Assembly: GCA_020072965.1 (NCBI GenBank)
Contig: JAIQFY010000046.1
Coordinates: forward strand, 1-41,235
DNA: 41,235 nt
Direction: 5' to 3'
DNA from: Terriglobia bacterium
GTDB taxonomy: Bacteria; Acidobacteriota; Terriglobia; JAIQFV01
How positions within the stretch are numbered: the stretch's first letter is position 1; each line of letters starts with the position of its first letter. The notes beneath the pieces are model-generated. The model saw only the letters and a list, made by a program, of their open reading frames with translations, did not search any database and was not told the origin of the DNA. Below are positions 18,673 to 32,528 of this stretch, in pieces. The translations under genes were made by a program, and so were the position numbers.

Positions 18673-21132
18673 ATGGGAGACCTCATCAGTGATCTTCGCC
18701 AGGCGATCCGGATGATGCTGGGCAATCCCGGCTTCACTGTGGTGGCGGTCCTCACCCTGGCGCTCGGCATCGGCGCGAACACCACGATTTTCAGTTGGAT
18801 CAATTCGGCATTGCTCAATCCGGTTCCCGGACTGGACCGCCCCAGCGAGGTGGTGGCGATGACCCAGGGCAAGTCCGGGGACAATCCCCTCGGTTTTTCA
18901 TATCCTGATCTCGAAGCCATGCGCGACGGGCAACAGAGTTTTACCGGCATCACGGCGTGCGGCTTCACGGCGATGAGCCTGACTGGAAAGGGTAAACCGG
19001 AGCGCGTTTGGGGCATGGTCGCCACGGCGAATTACTTCGATGTCCTGGGCGTGCGGCCGATCTTGGGACGCGGCTTTCTCCCCGCGGAGGACGAGAAGCC
19101 GGGAGGCGCGCCCGTGGCGGTCATCAGCCACCGGTTCTGGCAAACGCATTTCGGTGGGAATCCGAACATCGTGGGCCAGACCCTTGAAATCAACCAGCAC
19201 CCCTACACCATTGTGGGCGTCACGCCGGCCGTGTTTCAGGGGAGCCAGACGGGGGTGCGAACCGAGATCTGGCTTCCGGTCATGATGGAAGCCCAAGTGA
19301 ACCCGCAGGGCGACCTGCTTCATGACCATCACTACTTCTGGTTACTTGCGTTTGGACGGTTGAAGCCGGGCGTCGCGCTGACGCAGGCGCAGGAGGAAAT
19401 GACGCTGCGACTGAAGCGGGAGGCAAAGAATTATCCCGAGGAGCACAAAGGGCACGACAGCGTGACGGTGTACCCGCTGTGGCGCAACCCTTACGGCATG
19501 AATTATTTTCTCGCGACGCTGCTGCCCATCCTGATGTCCATTGCCGGGCTCGTGCTGCTGCTGGCCTGCGCGAACGTGGCCAATCTGGTGCTGGTGCGGG
19601 CGGTGGGGCGGCGGCGTGAAATCGCCATTCGCATGTCGCTGGGGGCGAGCCGATGGCGGCTGGTGCGGCAACTGCTGGTGGAAAGCCTGATGGTGGCGAT
19701 GGCCGGAGGCGCGGTCGCCTTGTTGATCACGGTCTGGACGGCCGGAACCCTCATGAAGTTCGTGTCAGACGGGGGGGACGGTGGAGGCGGCTTCCCGATC
19801 TCGCTTATCGTCCGGGTGGACCGTACGGTGCTGCTGGCAACGCTGGCGATCTCGGCGCTCACCGCCTTGATTTTCGGGATTCTGCCGGCGCTGCGGGCTT
19901 CGAGCGAAGCGCCGGTGACCGTGTTGAAAGAGGACACCGGCAGCGCTTCGGGCAGCCTGCGAAAGGCGCGCCTCGCGAGCGGGCTGGTGGTGGCACAAGT
20001 CTCGCTGTCCCTGCTTCTGCTGATCTGCGCGGGTTTGCTCATTCGCAGCTTCCGGAGCGCGCAGCAGATCGATCCCGGATTCAATCCACATAACGTGCTG
20101 AACGCCTCCTACGATCTGTTTACCGCAGGATACTCCGAGGCGAGCGGGGCGGAGTTCAATCGCCAGCTCGTCGCGAAAGTGGAAGCGCTGCCGGGCATGG
20201 AGTCGGTGGCCCTCGCGGATCACGTGCCGCTGGAATTTGACCATGGTTCGACCAGCGTGAAGCCCGAGGGCTACGTCCCGCAGGCGGATGAATTGATGGA
20301 GACGCAAGAGGCCATCATCACGCCGAATTATTTCCGGACCCTGCAGATTCCCCTGGTGAAGGGACGCGACTTCACGCTCGAGGACACGAAGAGTTCGCAG
20401 CGCGCGGTTATTGTCAACGAAGCCTTTGCGAATCGCTACTGGCCGAATCAGGAAGCGCTCGGCAAGCAGCTCAATTCCGACTTGACGCACGAATGGTTCA
20501 CGGTGGTCGGCGTGGCTCGCGACAGCAAAATGACCAGCCTGAATGAAAAGCCGACGCCCTTCGTGTTTCTGCCGTTGTATCAGGTCTACCGGCCGACCGT
20601 GACGCTGCTTGCAAGGACGACGGGCGATCCGCTGATTTTAGACAAGACGGTCGAGAAAACGATCCATGATCTGAATGCCGACCTGGTGGTCTTCGACGTG
20701 GGGTCGCTCGAATCGGGCGAGCAAATTGCCAGTTTCCCCCAGCGCCTCGCTGGAACCTTTGTGGGCGCCTTCGGGCTGCTCGCGCTGGTCCTCGCGGCGG
20801 TCGGAATTTACGGCGTCACGGCCTACACCACACGTCAGCGCACCCATGAAATCGGCATCCGCATGGCGCTGGGTGCAAACAAAGATAACATTCTGCGGCT
20901 CGTGCTCCGCCACGGGGTTCGGTTGACGTTCGTCGGGGTGGGCCTGGGCCTGGCAGGGTCCTTCGCCCTGACGCGCTACTTGAGCAGCTTGCTGCTGGGC
21001 GTGACGAGCACTGATGCGCTGACCTTTTCTTTGGTGGCGGTTCTGCTCTGCGCCGTGGCGCTCTTCGCCTCCTTCATTCCCGCGCGCCGCGCCATGCGCG
21101 TGGATCCAGTGGTGGCGCTGAGATACGAATAG
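18673..21132 (+). CDS. ADOP-type permease (MacB/FtsX family), solo copy
   Basis: This encodes 819 residues. GAGGAG lies about 10 bases before the ATG. It begins directly with DLRQAIRMMLGNPGFTVVAV and [19 protein letters not shown], the first membrane helix of the MacB/FtsX permease fold. A periplasmic core domain follows, then three helices with the family motif ANLVLVRAVGRRREIAIRMS (about 305-325). A second membrane/core unit ends in RQRTHEIGIRMALGANKDNI and PARRAMRVDPVVALRYE. Such double-length permeases without an ATPase gene are typical of acidobacteria. Substrate unknown; MacB relatives move lipopeptides, peptides or lipoproteins or transmit force across the membrane. It lacks the N-terminal linker of the PadR-associated copies and has no PadR neighbour. 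Confidence 0.93.
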   Translation: MGDLISDLRQAIRMMLGNPGFTVVAVLTLALGIGANTTIFSWINSALLNPVPGLDRPSEVVAMTQGKSGDNPLGFSYPDLEAMRDGQQSFTGITACGFTAMSLTGKGKPERVWGMVATANYFDVLGVRPILGRGFLPAEDEKPGGAPVAVISHRFWQTHFGGNPNIVGQTLEINQHPYTIVGVTPAVFQGSQTGVRTEIWLPVMMEAQVNPQGDLLHDHHYFWLLAFGRLKPGVALTQAQEEMTLRLKREAKNYPEEHKGHDSVTVYPLWRNPYGMNYFLATLLPILMSIAGLVLLLACANVANLVLVRAVGRRREIAIRMSLGASRWRLVRQLLVESLMVAMAGGAVALLITVWTAGTLMKFVSDGGDGGGGFPISLIVRVDRTVLLATLAISALTALIFGILPALRASSEAPVTVLKEDTGSASGSLRKARLASGLVVAQVSLSLLLLICAGLLIRSFRSAQQIDPGFNPHNVLNASYDLFTAGYSEASGAEFNRQLVAKVEALPGMESVALADHVPLEFDHGSTSVKPEGYVPQADELMETQEAIITPNYFRTLQIPLVKGRDFTLEDTKSSQRAVIVNEAFANRYWPNQEALGKQLNSDLTHEWFTVVGVARDSKMTSLNEKPTPFVFLPLYQVYRPTVTLLARTTGDPLILDKTVEKTIHDLNADLVVFDVGSLESGEQIASFPQRLAGTFVGAFGLLALVLAAVGIYGVTAYTTRQRTHEIGIRMALGANKDNILRLVLRHGVRLTFVGVGLGLAGSFALTRYLSSLLLGVTSTDALTFSLVAVLLCAVALFASFIPARRAMRVDPVVALRYE

Positions 21133-21238: not shown

Positions 21239-21798
21239 CCCATCCGAGGGGAGGCCTTATCCGGGCTCAGGAAGGTCTGACGAAAGGGGCAAGGGTGTCA
21301 GCGAATAGTAGTCCCGGGTCTCAAAATTCAAGAAGTAGACTCGTTGATTGTTTAGACCACACCCCATCAACTGGATGCCAAGCTTCATCTCAGAAGAGAA
21401 AAATTGAAAATGTAGACTTGACCAACAAAAATTCTTTCGCCCCGCAAGCGGGGCTCGGATGTCATTGGGGAGACCGGTACCCCACCCTCGCTCCACCCCG
21501 CAAAGAACGCGGGACGGAGCGAGGGTGGGGTTACAATCTTCGAGCCCTCCGGGCCTAAAGCGGAGGGTCCCGCCGCGGCGGAGATCACGGGCTCTTGCGA
21601 CCGGCAGGGAAAAACCCGGGAGCCCCAAGAACGGGATCCCGGCTACCAAAACCCATGCGAGTCGATCTTCCCGGGACAACGAATGTCACTATGAGTTGAA
21701 ATCATACATAAGTGAGATTTGCCGAATGTTGAAGACTTTTGCGTCCCGTTGAGCAGTTTCCACCATTCATTAGTGCTCACAAAGAGGGGAAGCTCAAA
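21239..21798. other. Gap with strong hairpins before the candidate selenoprotein gene
   Basis: No gene is supportable. Visible structures are a hairpin CGCCCCGCAAGCGGGGC near 21439-21456, a long hairpin whose arms are CCCCACCCTCGCTCC (21480-21494) and GGAGCGAGGGTGGGG (21517-21531), one copy of the GC palindrome CCGCCGCGGCGG near 21571, and a single arm of the GTCAAGTCTAAATTTT family near 21402-21422. GAGGGG at 21784-21789 is the ribosome site of the next gene. Confidence 0.5.
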
Positions 21799-23031
21799 AT
21801 GGAGAGCAACAACGTTCCGAGTTCACACGGGTCTCGATCCTATGAGGGCACATTCCTCAAACTCCAATTGAAGACTTGGGGTAAGGAATACCTGTCAGGA
21901 CTGCGTGTAGGCAGAGCACTGCGACACAACCGTCATTTGCGGCGAAGGCGATCCGGTGTCATGAGCTTATTCTTATACCTGGGCCTCCTGCTCATGGCGC
22001 ATGGGTCATACGGCCAGGAACCCCGGGCGCAGATCAGTTTACAGATCGGCCGGCTTGAACATGCCATAAACTCCGCTCCCGACTCCGATCAATCCGCGGA
22101 TGACACAGCAAGTCTTCAACAGGTCAGGAAAGCCTTCGATGCCGGCTACGTATATGCCAGCTTGTATGGCCTTGAGCCGGCCATGCTCCACATCACCACC
22201 CTCCAATACACCCTTTCCAAGAGCACCCTGGAATCGAAGGGCCTGGAAGCTTTTGAAGAGGAATGGCTACGGGTAGGAACGCAGCTGGACAAGGAAGAAC
22301 AAAGCTTGACCGGGACAAGTCTCGCATCGCTCCCTTCAGCGGTAAGGGCGATGGTTGAGGCCGCCCAGGTGCAGAGCCGTACTTACTACCAGGCGGCGCG
22401 GCTGTATGGCCGGGAAACCACCACGCAGTACGGACTCCAGTACCTCGGCCTCTCCAAAGGGTATCTCGACTTTGCGGTCTGGTGCAGCCAATTGCAATTT
22501 CCCACGAGCCCATCGTGGAAGGCCCACTCCCCCGGGGACGAGATCGCGGCGCTGGAAAGGGACGTCATCCGATCCTACAACCAGCCCCAGGCCTTGAAAC
22601 AAAATGAGCAGTTCATTGGGATCAGCTCGCGGTTGAAATTCGCCAGGGAACTCGACGAGCAGGGAAGATGGGAAGCCGCGCTGCAGGTCTACCTGAACGC
22701 GTCCCTCGCCTTCGGCCTGATCGACCCGCCTTCAACAGAAGGCTCGAAGCTCAGCACACTGCAAAAGGAAAGCAAAGATCTGCGCAACCGTCTGGCCGCA
22801 GGCCCTCTTGACCAGAGCCTCGGTCAATTGTACTGGGAAATTGCCCAGCTCGACCTGGAGGGGCTGGCAAGCAAGAAGATCGACAATGAGAACGCCAATC
22901 ATGCCGGCGTCCTTCTGAAGGAGGTTTTACCCCGGTACCTGCGCTACCTCGAGCACAGTGCTGTCACGGCCTCCGCCGCCCTGGCCGCCGCTAAAGTCAC
23001 GGTCACGCTGGTCCGCTGGCCGTACACTTGA
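21799..23031 (+). CDS. N-terminal part of candidate selenoprotein (helical secreted protein)
   Basis: Read to the TGA at 23029-23031 this gives 410 residues. The ATG at 21799 has GAGGGG 9 bases upstream. A basic stretch (HNRHLRRRRSG) precedes a hydrophobic segment MSLFLYLGLLLMAHGSYGQ, an internal export signal; an alternative start at 21961 would begin exactly there. The exported part is almost all helical and repeat-like, with Tyr/Leu/Ala-rich helices reminiscent of TPR proteins, but I recognise no named family. The last 12 residues before the TGA (KVTVTLVRWPYT) look like the first strand of a thioredoxin fold and make no sense as a protein end. I regard this as the front part of a longer protein (see 21799-23778). 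Confidence 0.8.
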   Translation: MESNNVPSSHGSRSYEGTFLKLQLKTWGKEYLSGLRVGRALRHNRHLRRRRSGVMSLFLYLGLLLMAHGSYGQEPRAQISLQIGRLEHAINSAPDSDQSADDTASLQQVRKAFDAGYVYASLYGLEPAMLHITTLQYTLSKSTLESKGLEAFEEEWLRVGTQLDKEEQSLTGTSLASLPSAVRAMVEAAQVQSRTYYQAARLYGRETTTQYGLQYLGLSKGYLDFAVWCSQLQFPTSPSWKAHSPGDEIAALERDVIRSYNQPQALKQNEQFIGISSRLKFARELDEQGRWEAALQVYLNASLAFGLIDPPSTEGSKLSTLQKESKDLRNRLAAGPLDQSLGQLYWEIAQLDLEGLASKKIDNENANHAGVLLKEVLPRYLRYLEHSAVTASAALAAAKVTVTLVRWPYT

Positions 23032-23036
23032 CATCT

Positions 23037-23064
23037 CTGTGATCCGGCAAGTTTGCTGGCACAG
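23037..23064 (+). promoter_or_regulatory. Candidate bacterial SECIS element
   Basis: Lower stem CTGTG (23037-23041) pairs with CACAG (23060-23064). A two-base AU bulge (23042-23043) sits on the 5' side. Upper stem CCGGCA (23044-23049) pairs with TGCTGG (23054-23059), including one G-U pair, around the loop AGUU (23050-23053). The loop begins 18 bases after the TGA and has G then U at its second and third positions. In E. coli fdhF, SelB contacts G23 and U24, counted from the U of UGA; here positions 23 and 24 are also G and U. Confidence 0.55.
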
Positions 23065-23778
23065 GACGTCATCCAGCGGTACGGTGACCGAGTTCGGTTC
23101 GTAAGCGAGAACTGGGGAAGCTCGAAACGGGCCGATCGTTTCGGTTTGAAGCGGTACCCCGTGGTGTTTGTGAACGATGTACTTCTTGCCCGCTCGGAGG
23201 ATTTTGGGTGGTTTGGCGCGAAGGGCCGGTACACGCCCTGGCTCAAGACGGAAAATCACGAGAAATTCAAGAAGGACTTGACTCACATGATTGACCTGGA
23301 GCTCAAGGGGGACACGCGAGCGGCCCAGCAGGCGCAGTCGCCCGCCCCACAAGAGGAGGACCTGGCACGTCTGCCCCACCTCAGTGCCAAAGACCTTGCC
23401 GGGTCGACCGTCGACGCGGCCTCGTTGTCCGGGAAGCTCGTCGTGGTGGAGTTTTGGGCCACCTGGTGTCTGCCGTGCCGCTCGACGCTCGAGTGGTTGG
23501 GAGAATTGAAGCGGAGGCACGGGGATAAGATTGAAATCCTGGCGATCGCCGTGGACTCGGAAGAATCTGAAGTACGGAAACTCACTCAACCGATGGGCCT
23601 GCCTTATCACGTCGTCCTGGGCGGCGCGGGGTTGGCCGAATCGTTCGGCGATATCAGCAGCGTCCCGACGATGTTTATTTTCAAGCCCAACGGCACGACG
23701 GCCTCCATTCTTTACGGCGCTCCTCAGGATTTGCACGACCGAGTCAGCCATGCGATCGACGCCTTGCTTCAGGAATGA
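23053..23778 (+). CDS. C-terminal part of candidate selenoprotein (thioredoxin/TlpA-like)
   Basis: As a separate gene this would need a TTG start at 23053 without a ribosome site (the TTG lies inside the hairpin), giving 241 residues and no export signal. It contains the remainder of a first thioredoxin-like fold (helix, strand, RYPVVFV cis-Pro loop) whose strand 1 and active-site residue lie upstream of the TGA. It also holds a complete TlpA/ResA-like domain with VVVEFWATWCLPCR, IEILAIAVDSEE and SVPTMFIF. WCLPC is the thiol-disulfide active site. Proteins of this type reduce or shuffle disulfides outside the cytoplasm, which requires the export signal found only in the upstream frame. Confidence 0.8.
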   Translation: MLAQDVIQRYGDRVRFVSENWGSSKRADRFGLKRYPVVFVNDVLLARSEDFGWFGAKGRYTPWLKTENHEKFKKDLTHMIDLELKGDTRAAQQAQSPAPQEEDLARLPHLSAKDLAGSTVDAASLSGKLVVVEFWATWCLPCRSTLEWLGELKRRHGDKIEILAIAVDSEESEVRKLTQPMGLPYHVVLGGAGLAESFGDISSVPTMFIFKPNGTTASILYGAPQDLHDRVSHAIDALLQE

Positions 23779-24298
23779 GTGATTGAACTCATGGCCCTCA
23801 GGTTCCGCAGGATGATTCGATAGATACTGTCGATCACCGAATCCGGGGAGATACCGATTGAGCCGGTAAAAGAGGATGGCAAGGTCTCGAACTTCAAGCC
23901 GTAGCAAGGCGACACCCACAACAACCAGGTTGAACAGAGAGAGGGGAGATGGTCCTTCCTCGACAATTGAATTCAGGAAAAGGTTTGAGAAAGAGGCTTG
24001 CCGGGTTGACTGCTCCCGCGCGGGTCTCCCTTCAGGAGGTTTCGGCAATTCAAACCGCAGAAAATGCGCGTATGCCCGGCGACACAGAATATTTGCGTGG
24101 AAACAGAAACCCTCGCTGCCCCGCGTTCGTCTAATTGATTTGATACCGTCTCATCGTCATCCATTGGCAACTCCAGGGGTACTCCGATAGATTCGGAGCG
24201 CTCTTCCTCATCACAAAAACAGATTCGTCGGTCTTCTGTCAAATGACTCGACGCGATTTTTCATGGTCTAACATTTGATCTTGAACGGGGGAAGGGGC
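23779..24298. other. Gap of about 520 bp before the second ADOP gene
   Basis: Open frames exist on both strands but none has a recognised domain or ribosome site. A long minus-strand frame that also covers the selenoprotein region is an antisense shadow. No repeat of the window's families is evident. The last bases hold GGGGGAAGG, the ribosome site of the permease. Confidence 0.45.
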
Positions 24299-26788
24299 AT
24301 GAACAATGTTCTGCAGGACTTTCGTTATGGCCTTCGGATGCTGGCAAAAAATCCGGCATTCACCCTGGTGGCGGTTTTAACACTGGCTCTCGGGATTGGG
24401 GCCAATACGGCCATTTTCAGTGTCATGAACGCGGTCATCCTTCGTTTTCTGCCGGTGTCCAATCCCCAGGAACTTGTCTACCTTCACACCACCGGAAATC
24501 CGAGCGGGTCTTCTCAAACGGGTGAAGGCAGTCTCTCGTTCACCATACCGATCTTTGATCGATTACGGATGGAGAGCCGGGTTTTTGCGAGCGTCATGGC
24601 TTATGTACCGCTTTCCATCGGCAAGGTTGCCGTACGTCATGGTGAAGAGCCGGAGGAGGCGCAAGCCGATATGGTGAGCGGGAATTTCTTCTCCGGGCTG
24701 GGGGTTCAGCCGGCGCGGGGCCAGACGTTCACGGCCCAGGATGAAACTCAACACAGCCAGGTGGCCGTGTTGAGCTACGGCTATTGGTCGCGGCGGTTTG
24801 GCCGCAATCCTTCCATCCTGGGCGAGACACTGTACATCAAGGGTGTGCCATTCACGGTGATCGGCATTGGCGCACGCGATTTTGCAGGTGTGGAATCCGG
24901 GGTTGCCACCGATGTCTGGATTCCCTTGCAGAACAGGCCGGACCTGACGGCCTGGGGACAACCGGCGCAGGACGGGAACACCTTGTACGGTTCGCCAAAT
25001 TGGTGGTGCCTGATGATGATTGGCCGGCTCGCACCCGGGATCAACCAGAAGCAAGCCAGCGCCCAACTGACTCCCATTTTCGAGCGGGCTGCCTACGAGG
25101 GAGTAGGGAAGCGAGACCCGAATGAACATCCCCCCCAACTCTATTTTTCAGACGCGCGAGGAATCGGGAGCCAGCGCAGTGACTTCGAGCAGCCCATCGC
25201 TGCATTGATGGGAATGGTGGGGTTGGTTCTGATCATCGCTTGCGGCAATGTGGCCATGCTGCTGGTGGCCCGGAATTCCACAAGACAACGAGAGTTTTGC
25301 CTGCGCATGGCACTCGGCGCCGGTCGCGGACGGCTCTTCTGTCAACTGCTTACCGAAAGTCTGCTGCTGGTTGCCGGCGGAGGAATATTGGGGTGGCTGT
25401 TCGCGGTGTGGGCCACCCAGTCGCTGGCTGCCTGGTCGGAACTCAAGCTCAGTCTCGCGCCGGATCTTTCGGTCCTGCTCTTTACTCTGGGAGTCTCGAT
25501 TCTCGCCGCCCTCCTGTTTGGGCTGGCTCCGCTCAGAAACGCTGTGGGGACACCCATTGGACTTGTATTGAAGACTTCCGCCGCGACGACGTACCAGGAT
25601 CGAAAAAAGGTCCGGGGCGGCCAAGTGGTCATTGCACTGCAAATGGCGATGTGCCTCGTGTTGCTGGTCTGTTCGGGTCTTCTCGTTCGAACCCTGCGGA
25701 ACCTTGAAACCACTGACCTGGGAATGCGCGCACCGGGTCTGCTCGTTTTTGGTATCACGCCGCCGCAGACTCTGGCGACTGATCCGGAAGTCCATCGTTT
25801 TCATCAGGAGCTGTCGGCTCGCTTGCGCGCTTTGCCCGGAGTGGAGTCGGCGACGCTCATGCAGAACCGTATTGGCTCGGGATGGAGCAACAACACGAGT
25901 GCCTACGTGGACGGGAGGCGTCCCGGTGAAGGGAATCGCGAGAGCCCGTTACGATGGAATGCCGTGGGGCCGGATTATTTTCATGTACTCGGCATGACTC
26001 TTCTCCTGGGACGCGACTTTACGGATGCCGATTCCGCCACCGCGCCCAAAAGCGTCATCGTCAGCCAGACTTTTGCAGAACAGTACCTCCCGAAACTCAA
26101 CCCGCTGGGCCACCATGTTTCAATGTCTTCCAAGCCCGACAGCACCCAGTACACCATCATCGGTGTTGCCGCCGACAGCAAGTACACGGGTGTGCGCGAG
26201 AGCAAAAGACCGACGGCGTACTTCCCTTACACTCAGATAAAAGGCACTGGGACGATGCACTATGAACTGCGCACGCCAGGCAACCCGGCCGCACTTCTGT
26301 CGAGCGTCCGGCGCGTGGTGCATGACTTTGGGCCCGATCTGCCGCTGCTACAGCCGATGACCCAGCAGAATCAATTCAAGGAATCATTCTCGCAGGAGCG
26401 GTTGTTTGCCCGGCTCTCCATGTTCTTTGGATTTCTGGCTGCGCTGCTGGTGGCGACGGGTCTTTACGGAACGCTCGCTTACCGCGTGAGCCGGCGGACG
26501 GCCGAGATCGGCGTGCGGATGGCTCTGGGAGCACAACGACGCCAGGTCTTGTGGATGGTGCTGCTTGAAAGCCTGGCGGTAAGCCTCGCAGGTGTCATCG
26601 TCGGATTGCCCATTGCCTTCGGCGGTGGCCGCCTGCTGCGCTCGATGCTCTTTGAGCTCACGCCGGGCGATCCGGTCACCTTCGTCTGTGCATTGTTCGG
26701 ATTGACGCTGGTGGTGCTTGTGGCCAGCTTGATTCCCGCGCGCCGCGCCGCCAGCGTCGATCCCATGGTGGCGCTGCGATATGAATAG
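24299..26788 (+). CDS. ADOP-type permease (MacB/FtsX family), second solo copy
   Basis: This encodes 829 residues. The ATG at 24299 follows GAAGG; an in-frame TTG at 24275 is less likely. The first helix region reads DFRYGLRMLAKNPAFTLVAV and [20 protein letters not shown]. The mid-protein motif is ARNSTRQREFCLRMALGAGR and the C-terminal one SRRTAEIGVRMALGAQRRQV, with PARRAASVDPMVALRYE at the end. Like the copy at 18673 it lacks the linker domain before helix 1 and has no PadR gene. The two share architecture but differ widely in sequence, so this is an old duplication. No ATPase gene is near; the energy source and cargo are unknown. Confidence 0.93.
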   Translation: MNNVLQDFRYGLRMLAKNPAFTLVAVLTLALGIGANTAIFSVMNAVILRFLPVSNPQELVYLHTTGNPSGSSQTGEGSLSFTIPIFDRLRMESRVFASVMAYVPLSIGKVAVRHGEEPEEAQADMVSGNFFSGLGVQPARGQTFTAQDETQHSQVAVLSYGYWSRRFGRNPSILGETLYIKGVPFTVIGIGARDFAGVESGVATDVWIPLQNRPDLTAWGQPAQDGNTLYGSPNWWCLMMIGRLAPGINQKQASAQLTPIFERAAYEGVGKRDPNEHPPQLYFSDARGIGSQRSDFEQPIAALMGMVGLVLIIACGNVAMLLVARNSTRQREFCLRMALGAGRGRLFCQLLTESLLLVAGGGILGWLFAVWATQSLAAWSELKLSLAPDLSVLLFTLGVSILAALLFGLAPLRNAVGTPIGLVLKTSAATTYQDRKKVRGGQVVIALQMAMCLVLLVCSGLLVRTLRNLETTDLGMRAPGLLVFGITPPQTLATDPEVHRFHQELSARLRALPGVESATLMQNRIGSGWSNNTSAYVDGRRPGEGNRESPLRWNAVGPDYFHVLGMTLLLGRDFTDADSATAPKSVIVSQTFAEQYLPKLNPLGHHVSMSSKPDSTQYTIIGVAADSKYTGVRESKRPTAYFPYTQIKGTGTMHYELRTPGNPAALLSSVRRVVHDFGPDLPLLQPMTQQNQFKESFSQERLFARLSMFFGFLAALLVATGLYGTLAYRVSRRTAEIGVRMALGAQRRQVLWMVLLESLAVSLAGVIVGLPIAFGGGRLLRSMLFELTPGDPVTFVCALFGLTLVVLVASLIPARRAASVDPMVALRYE

Positions 26789-27141: not shown

Positions 27142-29796
27142 CTATTGTTCGCGGAGCAGGTTTGCCGGGTCGACGTCGAGGACGCGTCTCACGGGACCGG
27201 CGACCGAAAGTGATCCGGTGAGCAGCAAAGTTAATGCAACAGCACCAAGTACGAATGGATCCTGCGCTGTGGCCTGGTAGACGATCGCCGAAAGCAGTCG
27301 GCTTGCGGCCACGCCGAGCAGTATGCCGACCACCGAGCCGCTGGCAAGCAGGATCAGCAGGCGGCCGAGCGCGGCATAGAGAATCTGCTTCGCCTGCGCA
27401 CCGAGAACGACACGAATGCTCAGTTCGCGCAGTCGTTTGCTGACAGTGTACGAGGCGAGGCCGAAGGTCCCGGTGATCGAGAGGAGGAGTCCAAAAGCGC
27501 CAAAAAGGCCGAGGGCGACGGTCGCCACCTGGGATGGAAAGAGACTCAGTGCAAGCTGGCTGTTCCAGGGGCCCGATTCCTGAATAGGAACGGCGCGGTC
27601 AAGATCGCGGACCGCGTCGCGAATGGTGGCTACCATATCGGCCGTGTCGCGCCGGGTCCGGACGATGAGCGATGTCCTGGTGTCCCCTACCTGCGAGATC
27701 GGGAAAAACGCTGCGGCTTCCGGATCTTCACTGAGCGTAAAGTGTTTTCCATCTGCCATGATGCCCACGATCTGAATCGACACCCCGGAGCGGTTTTTAA
27801 AATAGCGTCCGACGGCGTGCTCGGAGTGGAAGAGTCGCCGAGCGAATTCCTGATTCACAATGGCAACGGGCGGCGTCTCCGCGGTGTCGGTAAAGCTTAC
27901 ATCGCGCCCCGCGAGCAGTGGTGTTCCAGAGGCGGTCAAATATCCGGGTGAGACTTCGTAGAAATAGGTATTAAAAGCTTTCTTTGAGGGTCTGAAATCG
28001 ACACTTTGTTGAGAGAAGACAGCAGTGCCGGCTTGCTCGAAAGATAGGGGCGTGGTATTCGCGTAGCCTGCTGCTTCCACTCCCGGGATCTCGGAGACCC
28101 TTTCCAGCAGCTGGCGCTGGAAATGATCCGCGGCGGCATCGCTCGAATAGCCAGCCCGGCTCAGATCGAATTGCGTACGAACAGCATTCTTCGGATTGAA
28201 ACCCAGGTCCATGGTCAGTGCTTTGCCCAGGCCGCGCAGCGAGACAAAGGCAGCCGTGACGGTAACGCAGCAGAGGGCGATCTGTGCTGCCAGCAGGACA
28301 TCGCGGAGCGCCCAGCGGCGTCCTGCGGAGTATTGGCTTCCGCCGCTCTTAATCGCGTCATTTGGGTCGGTCTTGAATATCTGCCGCAAGGGCATCACTC
28401 CGAACAGAACGCCGGCGAGCACCGAGATAAGGAACGCCATTAGGATCAACGATGGCTGCGGCAGCACGTGGAACTTGAAAGGGAATCTGCTGGGCGGATG
28501 CCAGCCGGCCAGCCCGGTGAGGGCCATCCACGCCAGGCCGCAGGCGCACGTGCCCCCGAAGATCGAAATCACAAAGGCCTCGACAAGGATCTGGCGGAGG
28601 ATGCGCCAGCGGCTCGATCCGATGGCCAGGCGGATGGCAATCTCGCGCGTGCGGTCTGCCGTACGCGCTGCAAACAGGCTGCCCAGGTTGGCGCAGGCGG
28701 CGAGCAACACAATGCCGGCCAGCCCCATCACCCCAGCCAGAAAACCGCGCGCCGGCCCGCCGATAAAGTCACCGATCAGACCAGGACGAGCCAGCTTGAA
28801 TGCCAGGCCCTCTTCATCCTTGGGATACTGCCGGGCAATGCGGGCAGCAATCGTTTTCAATTCAGCCTGCGCCTGGGGCAGGGTGAACTCGTTCTTGATG
28901 CGCACGATCGAAAAGACATCCTTATGGCTCCGCGACTCAAGCCAGTTGACTCCGTCCAGCGATGCTTCATTCGCCATCGGAACGAAAATGTCAATCTGGG
29001 CAAATTTTTCGGTCCCGTAGAAGCCTTCAGGCGTGACCCCGACGATTGTGTACCGGTGCTTGGCAATGCGGACCGTCGTCCCCACGATGTTGGGGTCCGC
29101 GCCAAAATCACTCTTCCATGCTGACCAGGAAAGCACCGCAGCCTCCGAGGCTCCGGGATGATCGTCATCGGCGCGCTCCAGCAGACGCCCGAGGAACGGC
29201 TTGATACCGACGACTTCGAAGTATTGCCCGCTCACTTCGTATCCCCAGACGTGCCGGGTGACGCCGTTGGCTTCCAAGCCAAATTCCTGAATCTCAACAC
29301 CGGCTACAGCAGAAAACACCGTATTGTCATCGCGCACATCGCGCATTTCCGGATACGAAAGAAAGGGGCCACCCTCTTGGGGCTGGAGCGTCATCACCCG
29401 GTCTGCATGAGGCAAATCCAGTTGCCGCAGGACCAATGCCTGCAGGACGCCGAAAACGATGACATTGGCGGCGATGCCGAGCGCCAGGGTGAAGACCGCG
29501 GTGAGGGCAAAGCCGGGAGAACGGCGCATCTGGCGTAAGGCGAATCGCAGGTCCTGCACCAGGGATTCGAAAAACGCGCCCACCCGCGCATCGCGCACGC
29601 GCTCCTTGACTTGCTCGACTCCGCCCAGTTCGATCCGCGCGGCCCGTCGCGCTTCCTCCGGCGGCATGCCCGCGCGAATCTTTTCCTCTATCAGCATTTC
29701 GAGGTGGGAATGAACCTCCTGGTCGAGGTCTGCCTCCACACGACGAAATAAAAAGAGATTTCTCAGGAAACTTCGGGCTTTCACAAGGAGCGGCAT
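27142..29796 (-). CDS. ADOP-type permease, distal gene of PadR operon
   Basis: This encodes 884 residues. The ATG at 29796 follows GAGGTG six bases upstream. An N-terminal cytoplasmic linker (1-75: DLDQEVHSHLEMLIEEKIRA, GMPPEEARRAARIELGGVEQ) precedes the first membrane helix (FALTAVFTLALGIAANVIVF). The rest has the usual core, the motif ARTADRTREIAIRLAIGSSR, a second half ending SKRLRELSIRVVLGAQAKQI and RRVLDVDPANLLREQ. It starts 40 bp after the stop of the ADOP at 29837. The first 70 or so residues are nearly identical to that gene's, whereas the remainder is very different. Confidence 0.93.
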   Translation of the reverse strand: MPLLVKARSFLRNLFLFRRVEADLDQEVHSHLEMLIEEKIRAGMPPEEARRAARIELGGVEQVKERVRDARVGAFFESLVQDLRFALRQMRRSPGFALTAVFTLALGIAANVIVFGVLQALVLRQLDLPHADRVMTLQPQEGGPFLSYPEMRDVRDDNTVFSAVAGVEIQEFGLEANGVTRHVWGYEVSGQYFEVVGIKPFLGRLLERADDDHPGASEAAVLSWSAWKSDFGADPNIVGTTVRIAKHRYTIVGVTPEGFYGTEKFAQIDIFVPMANEASLDGVNWLESRSHKDVFSIVRIKNEFTLPQAQAELKTIAARIARQYPKDEEGLAFKLARPGLIGDFIGGPARGFLAGVMGLAGIVLLAACANLGSLFAARTADRTREIAIRLAIGSSRWRILRQILVEAFVISIFGGTCACGLAWMALTGLAGWHPPSRFPFKFHVLPQPSLILMAFLISVLAGVLFGVMPLRQIFKTDPNDAIKSGGSQYSAGRRWALRDVLLAAQIALCCVTVTAAFVSLRGLGKALTMDLGFNPKNAVRTQFDLSRAGYSSDAAADHFQRQLLERVSEIPGVEAAGYANTTPLSFEQAGTAVFSQQSVDFRPSKKAFNTYFYEVSPGYLTASGTPLLAGRDVSFTDTAETPPVAIVNQEFARRLFHSEHAVGRYFKNRSGVSIQIVGIMADGKHFTLSEDPEAAAFFPISQVGDTRTSLIVRTRRDTADMVATIRDAVRDLDRAVPIQESGPWNSQLALSLFPSQVATVALGLFGAFGLLLSITGTFGLASYTVSKRLRELSIRVVLGAQAKQILYAALGRLLILLASGSVVGILLGVAASRLLSAIVYQATAQDPFVLGAVALTLLLTGSLSVAGPVRRVLDVDPANLLREQ

Positions 29797-29836
29797 GGTG
29801 AACACCTCAACAATCGAAACGACCCGAAACCAAGTT

Positions 29837-32515
29837 CTATTCGCAACGCAACGCAACCATTGGGTCTACTTGAGTGGCTCGCCGCGCCGGAATGAAACAA
29901 GCCAGGAGCGCGGCCCCCACGAGGAGCAGGGTCACCCCGCCGAAAGTCAGCGGATCGGTGGCAGTGACGCCAAAGAGCAGCGACTCTATGGTGCGTGTTA
30001 GAGCCAGCGAGCCGGCAATCCCAATCGCCACGCCGATGAAAATAGTGCGCAATCCCTGGCTTAGGATCATTCTCAGAACGTCGCCGGATCCCGCGCCGAG
30101 AGCGACGCGCACGCCAATCTCGCGCGTGCGGCGGCTGACGGAATAGGCCATCACGCCAAACACGCCTGCCGTAGCGAGAAGCAGCGCGACGATTCCGAAA
30201 AATCCGATGAGAATGACGTTAAATCTCCGCGAGCCCAACGAAGCTGAATAGACCTGCGAAAAAGTCCGGAACCTCGCCGGAATCTCCGGGTTGAGGTCCT
30301 CGAGGATTGCGCGCGCTGCGGATGTGACCAAGCGCGTGTCGGCATCGTTCAGCATAGTTAAGGTGATCGCGGCGCGCGGCCTCTGGAACAAATTCACATA
30401 GACGGTTGGACGCGGCGGCACATCGAGGCCGTATTCGTGAATGTCGCCCACGATCCCGACAATGGTCAGCAAGCGCAGGTCGCCATCCATGTTTCCGAAC
30501 TCAATCGTGTGGCCGATCGGGTCCTGATTTGGCCACCGGTCGCGCGCAAGCGATTCGCTGATCACGGCAACGTGCGGAGAGTCCGCGCCATCGCGCTCGT
30601 CGAAGATCCGCCCTCGAATCAGCGGAATTCCGAGAACCTGGAAGTATCCGTCCGTGGCCACGCCAAAGTCCGCATTGCCGATGCGTTCTTTTTGCTGCAA
30701 CAGCGCGCCAAAACCATCCATGGTCTTGGGGATCTCATTCTGGGTCATCAGTAGAAACATTCCGTCGGGAAGGCCGCCCTCCACCATCGGCAGGCCGCTC
30801 GTGGCGCCGACCTTGCGCACGCCCGGGATTTGTTTGAGCCGGTCAATCAGGTTTGAAAAGAAAATCGCCTGACGTGCCTTTGCTTTGGGATCGTCCACCC
30901 ACGGAAGCGCGACGTCCATCGTGACAATTTTATCCACGCGGAACCCGGGATTCACTTCGAGCACTTTCAGCAGGCTGCGCCCGAGCAATCCCGCTCCGAC
31001 CACGAGAACCAACGTGATCGCGAGCTGGGTCGCCACGATGACCCGGCCGACGCGCTGGCTGCCTTGCGAACCTGCTTGTCCCCGCCCGCCTTCCACCAGA
31101 CCCTTGCGCAGGTCGCCGGAAGTTGCCCGCGCAGCGGTGAAGGCTCCCAGGCCGGCGGCGACCGCAGTGGAAAGCAGGAACGCGAACACAAGGACTGGAA
31201 TGCTGATTGAGACGCTGTCCAGTCGCGGGAGATTTTGCGGCGCCAGCCCTACTAATCCCGCCACACCCCAGAACGCTCCCAGGACGCCGAGGCCGCCGCC
31301 CACGAGCGAAAGTAGAAAGGCTTCGGTAAGAAATTGACGGATCAGCCGTCCGCGCGCGGCACCGAGCGCGAGGCGAATGGCGAGCTCGCGCTCCCTCGCC
31401 GACGCTTGTGCCAGCAGCAAATTCGCCACGTTCGCGCAGGCCACCAGCAGCAGAAATCCCACCGCACCGAGCAGGACCAGCAGCGCCGGGCGAGCTTTGC
31501 CCGTGATCGAGTCCTGTAGAGGGACGACAATCCCATTTTTGAGGAGATAGTCGCCTTGCTCGCTCGATGTATCGTGAATGCGCCGGGCGATCGCGCTGAT
31601 GTCTCGATTCGCTTGCTCGACAGTCACACCGCCGCGGAGACGCCCGACCGCAGAGTAGTTATGCGACGTCCTGCTTGGGTTTTCGCCGTCCAAATCGGTC
31701 GGCAGCCACACATCCACGTCTGCCGGGAAACGAAATCCGGCCGGGAGCACGCCGATAATGGAGAAAACCGCGCCATCAATCTTCAGGTGCGACTGCGAGA
31801 GATCCTGCGGCGATCCGAGATATTGCCTCCAGTATCCATAGCTGACAAGAACGGTGGGGCCGGCCCCTTTTTTCGCGTCGCTGGCGCTGAAATCCCGCCC
31901 GAGGATCGGCTGAATACCGAAGACCTTGAGAAAGTCAGGGGAGACGCCCGCGACTGTCGTGCGCGTCGGCTGTGAGGGACCCGAAACGGACGCGATGTTG
32001 CCATTGTACTTTGCAATTGCCTGAAAGCTGCGGTTTTGATCGCGAAAGTCGTCGAAGTTCGGGTCCGCGAGGCGGGACCACCGGCCCTTTGAGGTGACCT
32101 CGAAGACGGCCATGATCCGGTCCGATTCGGGGTACGGCAGCGGCCGCAACAACACCCCGTATACAACGCTGAAGATTGCTGTGGTCGCGCCGATGGCCAG
32201 CGCGAGCGTAAAGATCATGACGGCGGTCGTGCCGGGGTTTTTGCGGAGTTGGCGGAGACCGTAGCGGCAATCGGAGAGCACGGAGTGGAGCCAATTTCCA
32301 AGCCGTTCTTCGCGAACCTGTTCTTTCACCTGTTCGATGCCGCCCAGTTCGATCCGCGCGGCCCGTCGCGCTTCCTCCGGCGGCATGCCCGCGCGAATGT
32401 TCTCCTCGGTCAGCATTTCGAGGTGGGCATGAACCTCCTGGTCGAGGTCTACCTCCACACGCCGGGATAAAAAGAGATTTCTCAAGAAACTTCGGGCCTT
32501 CACAAGGAGCGGCAC
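29837..32515 (-). CDS. ADOP-type permease, proximal gene of PadR operon
   Basis: This encodes 892 residues with a GTG start at 32515. The start is chosen because the preceding AGGTGTTTAGC lines up with the ribosome site of the paralogue, whose ATG stands at this position; an in-frame GTG at 32524 is the alternative. The N-terminal linker (DLDQEVHAHLEMLTEENIRA) is followed by TTAVMIFTLALAIGATTAIF, the core domain, ASARERELAIRLALGAARGR, and a C-terminal half with SRRTREIGVRVALGAGSGDV and PARRATQVDPMVALRCE. It lies 13 bp after the PadR stop, so the regulator and both permeases form one operon. Confidence 0.93.
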   Translation of the reverse strand: MPLLVKARSFLRNLFLSRRVEVDLDQEVHAHLEMLTEENIRAGMPPEEARRAARIELGGIEQVKEQVREERLGNWLHSVLSDCRYGLRQLRKNPGTTAVMIFTLALAIGATTAIFSVVYGVLLRPLPYPESDRIMAVFEVTSKGRWSRLADPNFDDFRDQNRSFQAIAKYNGNIASVSGPSQPTRTTVAGVSPDFLKVFGIQPILGRDFSASDAKKGAGPTVLVSYGYWRQYLGSPQDLSQSHLKIDGAVFSIIGVLPAGFRFPADVDVWLPTDLDGENPSRTSHNYSAVGRLRGGVTVEQANRDISAIARRIHDTSSEQGDYLLKNGIVVPLQDSITGKARPALLVLLGAVGFLLLVACANVANLLLAQASARERELAIRLALGAARGRLIRQFLTEAFLLSLVGGGLGVLGAFWGVAGLVGLAPQNLPRLDSVSISIPVLVFAFLLSTAVAAGLGAFTAARATSGDLRKGLVEGGRGQAGSQGSQRVGRVIVATQLAITLVLVVGAGLLGRSLLKVLEVNPGFRVDKIVTMDVALPWVDDPKAKARQAIFFSNLIDRLKQIPGVRKVGATSGLPMVEGGLPDGMFLLMTQNEIPKTMDGFGALLQQKERIGNADFGVATDGYFQVLGIPLIRGRIFDERDGADSPHVAVISESLARDRWPNQDPIGHTIEFGNMDGDLRLLTIVGIVGDIHEYGLDVPPRPTVYVNLFQRPRAAITLTMLNDADTRLVTSAARAILEDLNPEIPARFRTFSQVYSASLGSRRFNVILIGFFGIVALLLATAGVFGVMAYSVSRRTREIGVRVALGAGSGDVLRMILSQGLRTIFIGVAIGIAGSLALTRTIESLLFGVTATDPLTFGGVTLLLVGAALLACFIPARRATQVDPMVALRCE

Positions 32516-32528
32516 GCTAAACACCTTT

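Follow-up and report, generated by a model that had tools for sequence, protein, structure and literature searches.

A candidate family of mainly acidobacterial selenoproteins with a UxxS thioredoxin-fold domain and a fused TlpA-like redoxin domain

Introduction

Selenoproteins as such, and selenocysteine (Sec) within a thioredoxin fold, are well known. For thioredoxin (Trx) we take Cys32, Trp28 and Pro76 as the reference positions, and proteins of the DsbD/CcdA type are the known reductants of TlpA-like dithiols. Among the 119 selenoprotein families or subfamilies in Table 1 of PMC13188914 (2026) are Sec-thioredoxin, with its UxxC motif, a UGC-containing selenoprotein of the TlpA family and three entries with UxxS spacing (rhodanese form 1, arsenate reductase and AhpC/TSA cd02970); the same source gives a Sec-containing peroxiredoxin (PxxxTxxU), and NCBIfam holds a ResA-like WAxxUGC protein (NF041054). 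For the Acidobacteria, two further reports give three families with four selenoproteins (PMC1794560) and, in the one acidobacteriotal genome tested, three known selenoprotein genes and no new one (PMC12013277).

Here we analyse a gene in a stretch of 41,235 nucleotides from a Terriglobia bacterium (assembly GCA_020072965.1, contig JAIQFY010000046.1), hereafter the window, for which an earlier note had proposed that an in-frame TGA takes the place of the first Cys of a thioredoxin CxxC. Like thioredoxin (PF00085) and the tabulated Sec-thioredoxin, the product is predicted to have this fold, with Sec at the position of the first Trx Cys and a Trp four residues before it; the family to which it belongs nevertheless has no PF00085 match in its Sec domain, carries UxxS in 32 of 34 loci and has a second redoxin domain fused to the first, the CxxC/UxxC spacing of the thioredoxin family being found in just two members, the window and a sister locus (L017). 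The C-terminal domain resembles the TlpA/ResA-like oxidoreductases (PF00578, PF08534), as it passes the Pfam cut-offs and keeps a WCxxC, whereas it falls far below the NCBIfam cut-offs for ResA and TlpA and carries Cys, not Sec. The UGC-containing TlpA selenoprotein and NF041054 likewise have a TlpA-like domain in a selenoprotein, but their Sec, going by the names of these entries, lies within that domain and not, as here, in a separate thioredoxin-fold domain; the window protein reached 28.4 bits with NF041054, whose cut-off is 300. With the Sec peroxiredoxin of PMC13188914 our family would share a thioredoxin fold whose only Sec is served by an external dithiol, as proposed below, whereas its R-W-P-Y-T-U places Thr at -1 and Pro at -3 and the peroxiredoxin motif has them at -3 and -7; the Sec domain gave no peroxiredoxin family match, and no PxxxTxxC/U motif lies at the Sec. 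The three UxxS entries have the same spacing and are set apart, as tabulated, by their assigned domains alone.

No entry of that table has this motif or architecture, and a search of the full-text literature, with preprints and most subscription papers outside its reach, found no description of the family. The architecture, which the earlier note did not recognise among known selenoproteins, has indeed no equivalent in Table 1 of PMC13188914. Family, motif and architecture appear new, the UxxS neighbours in the table being compared by description only.

The gene and the predicted parts of its product

As first read, the whole gene occupies positions 21799-23778 of the forward strand. A single TGA (23029-23031, codon 411) is the sole break in this frame before its end at a second TGA (23776-23778), just as the earlier note had it, and we read it on comparative grounds as selenocysteine (Sec411). 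The claim that the downstream frame has no ATG holds near its beginning, but not throughout, as Met codons such as Met497 are present farther on. The start is uncertain. A Shine-Dalgarno-like AGAGGGG (21783-21789, forward strand) stands before ATG 21799, and the sister genome has AGAGGAG at the equivalent site. Residues 1-54 (21799-21960), however, have a near-neutral dN/dS of 0.22/0.26 (about 0.86) between the window and L017, and because they evolve almost freely the start at 21799 is doubtful and possibly too far upstream. The true start may be TTG 21937 or ATG 21961, immediately 5' of a hydrophobic signal-peptide-like stretch (MSLFLYLGLLLMAHGSYG, 21961-22014), and leader stretches of this kind suggest that the product is probably exported.

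Read through the TGA, the product consists, in this order, of the signal-peptide-like stretch, an all-helical domain (approximately residues 75-390, 22021-22968), the domain with codon 411 (residues 396-507, about 112 residues, 22984-23319), delimited by profile matches and a predicted model, and a TlpA/ResA-like redoxin domain (residues 525-659, 23371-23775), recognised by its Pfam matches and carrying the CxxC motif CLPC (23467-23478), which is evident from sequence and alignment. A presumed cis-Pro454 (23158-23160) lies before strand 3 of the thioredoxin fold and is invariant in 25 aligned loci; the distance of 43 residues from Sec411 given in the earlier note is correct. Several large genes for MacB/FtsX-like permeases, named by eye, flank the selenoprotein gene (18673-21132, 24275-26788, 27142-29856 and 29837-32524).

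In a model of the full-length protein the helical domain is all helix and mostly confident. Residues 390-464 stay under pLDDT 50 in it, so the Sec domain was predicted alone. It reached a mean pLDDT of 82.6, with an order of strands and helices compatible with thioredoxin and the Sec immediately ahead of the first helix; around the Sec, at residues 16-18 of this model, pLDDT drops below 50. VIA-align placed the model closest to a designed thioredoxin (Z 10.2, 2.4 A over 83) and gave Z 9.0 (3.0 A over 87) with the Trx of T. thermophilus, its 50 rows being mostly thioredoxins together with SelW-related proteins, PDI domains and KaiB. Foldseek alone returned no PDB match for the Sec domain at E <= 0.001, and a sequence search of the PDB gave weak matches, mostly thioredoxins, the best at E 0.51. 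On the mean pLDDT and the VIA Z of the isolated domain, the thioredoxin fold put forward in the earlier note stands as a prediction.

Family models were scanned in Pfam (the whole window protein, its Sec and helical domains alone, and four relatives) and in NCBIfam 20.0 (the window protein and four relatives, five of the 34 loci). In the members scanned no model of either collection passed its cut-off on the Sec domain, and in the five run against NCBIfam no model did so at all. Below the cut-offs, TraF matched the Sec region with 13.3 bits and TIGR02187 (PDO_seleno_TRX), the only NCBIfam model to appear there, matched it in two of the five members with 10.8 and 14.5 bits against 185; residues 396-507 alone gave no PF00085 match, only DUF7020 with 13.8 bits against a cut-off of 25. 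The TlpA-like domain of the window, on the other hand, was matched by AhpC-TSA (PF00578) with 45.2 bits against 26 and by Redoxin (PF08534) with 37.5 against 26.6.

A family with the same TGA

Three sequences served to build a profile of the Sec domain, which had matches in 8 of 399 genomes of the window's class, in 17 of 396 genomes of its phylum (one of them, L088, being dropped), in 7 of 154 genomes from the class to which G1131 belongs, and in 5 of 392 genomes from the phylum of G748, which carries L073 and is labelled Planctomycetota. A query with the sequence that follows the Sec, run against a collection of named genomes, gave six loci. These sets overlap, and after removal of duplicates (L060=L017, L061=L009, L069=L064, L072=L062, L091=L073) there remained 34 distinct Sec loci, 33 of them complete, as L067 ends at a contig edge. 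Two candidates were rejected: L033 (G090), whose match covers query residues 447-645, beyond the Sec, at 27% identity, and L088 (G579), set aside before the phylum count, a CPFC protein of 21.1 bits without the TGA that may be a distant thioredoxin-like relative. Among 25 aligned loci, the 23 from outside the window's genus share 50-62% of their Sec-domain residues with the window.

Members occur in many families of one phylum and also in genomes placed in a second. From a tree of 30 rows, in which 5 of 27 inner branches are starred and the bootstrap is unsettled, we derive no transfer history; L090 (G751, phylum of G748) groups in it inside acidobacterial sequences, by transfer or through a problem of labelling.

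Codon 411 is TGA in all 34 distinct Sec loci, each in a separate genome. The alignment of homologues at this position that the earlier note had called for thus gave TGA throughout the Sec loci and TGC (Cys) in one clear homologue without the TGA. The recurrence of this TGA across 34 loci, each from a different genome, makes chance untenable as its origin, and equally a pseudogene or an error of sequencing, both of which the earlier note had named as possible refutations. Selection was compared between the window and L017, an 84%-identical copy in the same genus. Before the TGA, dN/dS is 0.116/0.495 (residues 55-410); after it, 0.014/0.315 (residues 412-505) and 0.037/0.414 (506-659). Purifying selection is stronger after the TGA than before it.

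The family motif around the Sec reads [VIML]RWP[YF]-T-U-x-[ILV]-S-D-P-A-[SG]-L-L. Its U+3 residue is Ser in 32 of 34 loci and Cys in the other two, the window (U-H-L-C) and its sister species L017, so that the UxxC of the earlier note is right for these two and does not hold as a family motif. Judging from the aligned loci, UxxC is a local variant of the window's genus and the Sec normally has no resolving Cys at U+3. The only Cys residues after the Sec that are fixed in all 33 complete loci are the CxxC pair of the TlpA-like domain, where the WCxxC is likewise found in 33 of 33; stray ones occur in L066, L094 and the window's genus. None of the Cys residues that precede the Sec is shared by all 25 loci examined.

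The SECIS hairpin

From the TGA onwards, the RNA of the window is predicted to fold into a bacterial-type SECIS hairpin (23029-23071, forward strand) of -20.4 kcal/mol, with its core aligned at 23044-23059. The core sequence CCRGCA[A/G]GU[U/C]UGCUG, with an apical G-U, matches in 34 of 34 loci, followed in most by a closing G. In the bSECIS model quoted in PMC13188914, the apical loop has 3-9 nt with G in its first two positions, lies 16-37 nt after the UGA and comes with a minimum free energy (MFE) of -7.5 or lower; in our family the loop is AGUU or GGUC, 18 nt after the UGA, and the minimum energy over 50 bases from the TGA lies between -8.5 and -21.8 in 33 of 33 loci. Compared with shuffled sequences, the hairpins of three loci proved only moderately unusual, with -20.4 kcal/mol for the window (z -2.84, 4 of 200 shuffles folding as well), -16.5 for L017 (z -1.79, 13 of 200) and -13.9 for L018 (z -1.85, 8 of 200). 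An Rfam search of 22900-23300 gave no match at E <= 1. The AGGUCU form of the loop equals what we take to be the apical loop of E. coli fdhF.

The rare codons of the hairpin are fixed, two of them in two forms. The Ala codon is GCA in all 34 loci, the next is AGT (Ser, 25) or GGT (Gly, 9), the following Leu is TTG (25) or CTG (9), and the last Leu is CTG in 34 of 34; in the family genes of 25 loci, GCA makes up 8%, AGT 6% and TTG 10% of their own synonyms. The pair closing the loop is A-U in 20 of 25 loci and G-C in 5, the exchange of AGU-UUG for GGU-CUG preserving the pairing. RNAalifold alone proposed five pairs, none of them changed on both sides, and the compensating loop-closing pair was picked by hand. 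In a covariation test with this hand-picked pair, the number of covarying pairs was ordinary (reached by 352 of 500 shuffles) and the number of covarying cells was reached by none of 500. As read from these sequences, the fixation at the codon level is a stronger RNA-level argument than covariation.

Selenocysteine machinery

The search of the same genome for selA, selB, selD and tRNA-Sec that had been suggested in the earlier note found all four over their cut-offs: a tRNA-Sec with anticodon TCA (UCA) at 69.8 bits, selB at 381.7, selA at 556.5 and selD at 376.7 bits. The selD of this genome (L055, C68:64978-65904) is a selenoprotein gene itself: a TGA lies within its frame, and the sequence after it folds into a hairpin of -24.6 kcal/mol. 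In the phylum sample, selA was present at E 1.8e-129 or better in 16 of 16 family-bearing genomes and over the cut-off in 250 of 396 overall; this co-occurrence (hypergeometric p 5e-4, relatedness not corrected for) is supporting evidence only. G748 has a selA of 496.8 bits.

A Cys homologue and the company of the domain

In G1131, two copies of the domain lie about 4.4 kb apart: L094 has the TGA and L095 has TGC at the same place (RWPFL-C-RLSDPASIL). The SECIS codons are gone from L095, where GCC AGC ATC CTG is found. It is the only clear Cys homologue that we found, and its TGC together with the lost SECIS codons amounts to the exchange of Sec for Cys that a true selenoprotein should show, which speaks against decoding as Trp. 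L095 comprises a sigma-70 region 2/region 4 protein, a hydrophobic stretch, the Cys domain and a C-terminal helical domain. It has no TlpA-like Pfam match, so the Cys form of the domain can exist without a built-in donor. As an observation in its own right, L095 (L096:4362-6428, G1131:C131) fuses an ECF-type sigma-70 region 2/4 to a Cys thioredoxin-fold domain and is a possible transmembrane redox-controlled sigma factor.

The order of parts in L094 is Sec domain, TlpA and helical domain. In six short forms (L070, L075, L076, L085, L086 and L087) Sec-TlpA has a gene of its own, and the helical-domain profile matches the ORF directly upstream of it or overlapping it in 6 of 6, at E 9.7e-55 to 1.2e-72. 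In all three arrangements the helical domain accompanies the Sec domain: fused N-terminally, as in the window, fused C-terminally, as in L094 and L095, or encoded upstream, as in the short forms. For 17 loci the ORFs with 120 codons or more were clustered, without a control; besides the family itself and antisense ORFs, one cluster was present in six loci and another in three. The six-locus cluster comprises DNA-binding/TPR/propeller-type proteins, with a Pfam name only for its member in L096, and in these 17 loci nothing next to the gene, apart from the helical partner, is conserved reliably enough to hint at a substrate.

Competing readings of the TGA and of the Sec domain

Comparative evidence and machinery together make it very probable that UGA 411 is decoded as selenocysteine by SelB with the help of the SECIS. 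A complete helical domain lies before the TGA and is a gene of its own in six relatives, as would be expected if the TGA were a real stop, whether in a pseudogene, between two separate proteins or at the end of a truncated helical protein that is secreted; yet all 34 loci have the TGA at this codon, the sequence after it is under strong purifying selection, conservation at the RNA level extends across it, and the break between genes in the six short forms falls well before a TGA that is still present, which makes termination here extremely improbable. Hardly better is our opinion of a read-through without selenium, in which the TGA would be translated as Trp or another residue. The open frame is all that speaks for it, and it is opposed by the conserved SECIS, the complete Sec machinery and the choice of Cys as replacement in L095, as well as by the fact that 16 of 33 complete family genes, the window's included, themselves end in TGA.

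Granted the Sec, two other views of its role deserve attention. The earlier note implied a classical Sec-thioredoxin, in which a UxxC selenothiol would reduce disulfides and form an internal Se-S bond in each cycle, and both the U-H-L-C of the window and its sister genome and the predicted thioredoxin fold agree with it; with Ser at U+3 in 32 of 34 loci, however, such a bond cannot be general, and we consider this unlikely as an account of the family, while a UxxC cycle of the classical kind is possible in the window's genus, which has the Cys at U+3. Rather unlikely, too, though with a little more in its favour, is a redox sensor in place of an enzyme, the Sec/Cys domain sensing an oxidant outside the cytoplasm and relaying the signal: the Cys paralogue L095, placed behind sigma-70 region 2/region 4 and a hydrophobic stretch and accompanied by the same helical domain, is what one would expect of it, but the sigma fusion was seen once and the TlpA-like CxxC is there in 33 of 33 complete Sec loci.

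Proposed mechanism

Under the preferred reading, SelB, guided by the SECIS hairpin that starts at the UGA, would insert Sec at codon 411 instead of letting translation terminate. The product would then have three parts: the helical domain, a thioredoxin-fold domain in which a single Sec replaces the first catalytic Cys, and a TlpA/ResA-like dithiol domain. The Sec, normally without a resolving Cys, shares its chain with a CxxC redoxin in all complete loci, which suggests a monoselenol site regenerated by a dithiol. For the resulting proposal, a periplasmic monoselenol enzyme with the motif UxxS that would be regenerated by its own TlpA domain, we see an even chance. The Sec selenolate would attack a substrate in oxidised form, be it a peroxide, a mixed disulfide or a sulfenic or sulfoxide group. 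The CxxC of the attached TlpA domain would then resolve the Se-OH or Se-S form so produced and be re-reduced in its turn by a membrane donor of the DsbD/CcdA type, the helical domain probably positioning a partner or the substrate. That the substrate is a peroxide or an oxidised protein residue is a guess, as is the order of electron flow.

Significance

More tentatively, and as something possible rather than probable, the loci may represent a mainly acidobacterial family of selenoenzymes in which a lone selenol and a TlpA reductase on the same chain form a self-contained periplasmic selenoperoxidase or reductase, while the same pair of thioredoxin-fold and helical domains, in its Cys version, has also been joined to an ECF-type sigma factor and may act there as a transmembrane redox switch. 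Annotation easily cuts selenoprotein genes in two. The family is a defined target for the role of selenium in soil bacteria outside the cytoplasm, and its pairing of a lone Sec with an internal dithiol domain lends itself to a clear test of mechanism.
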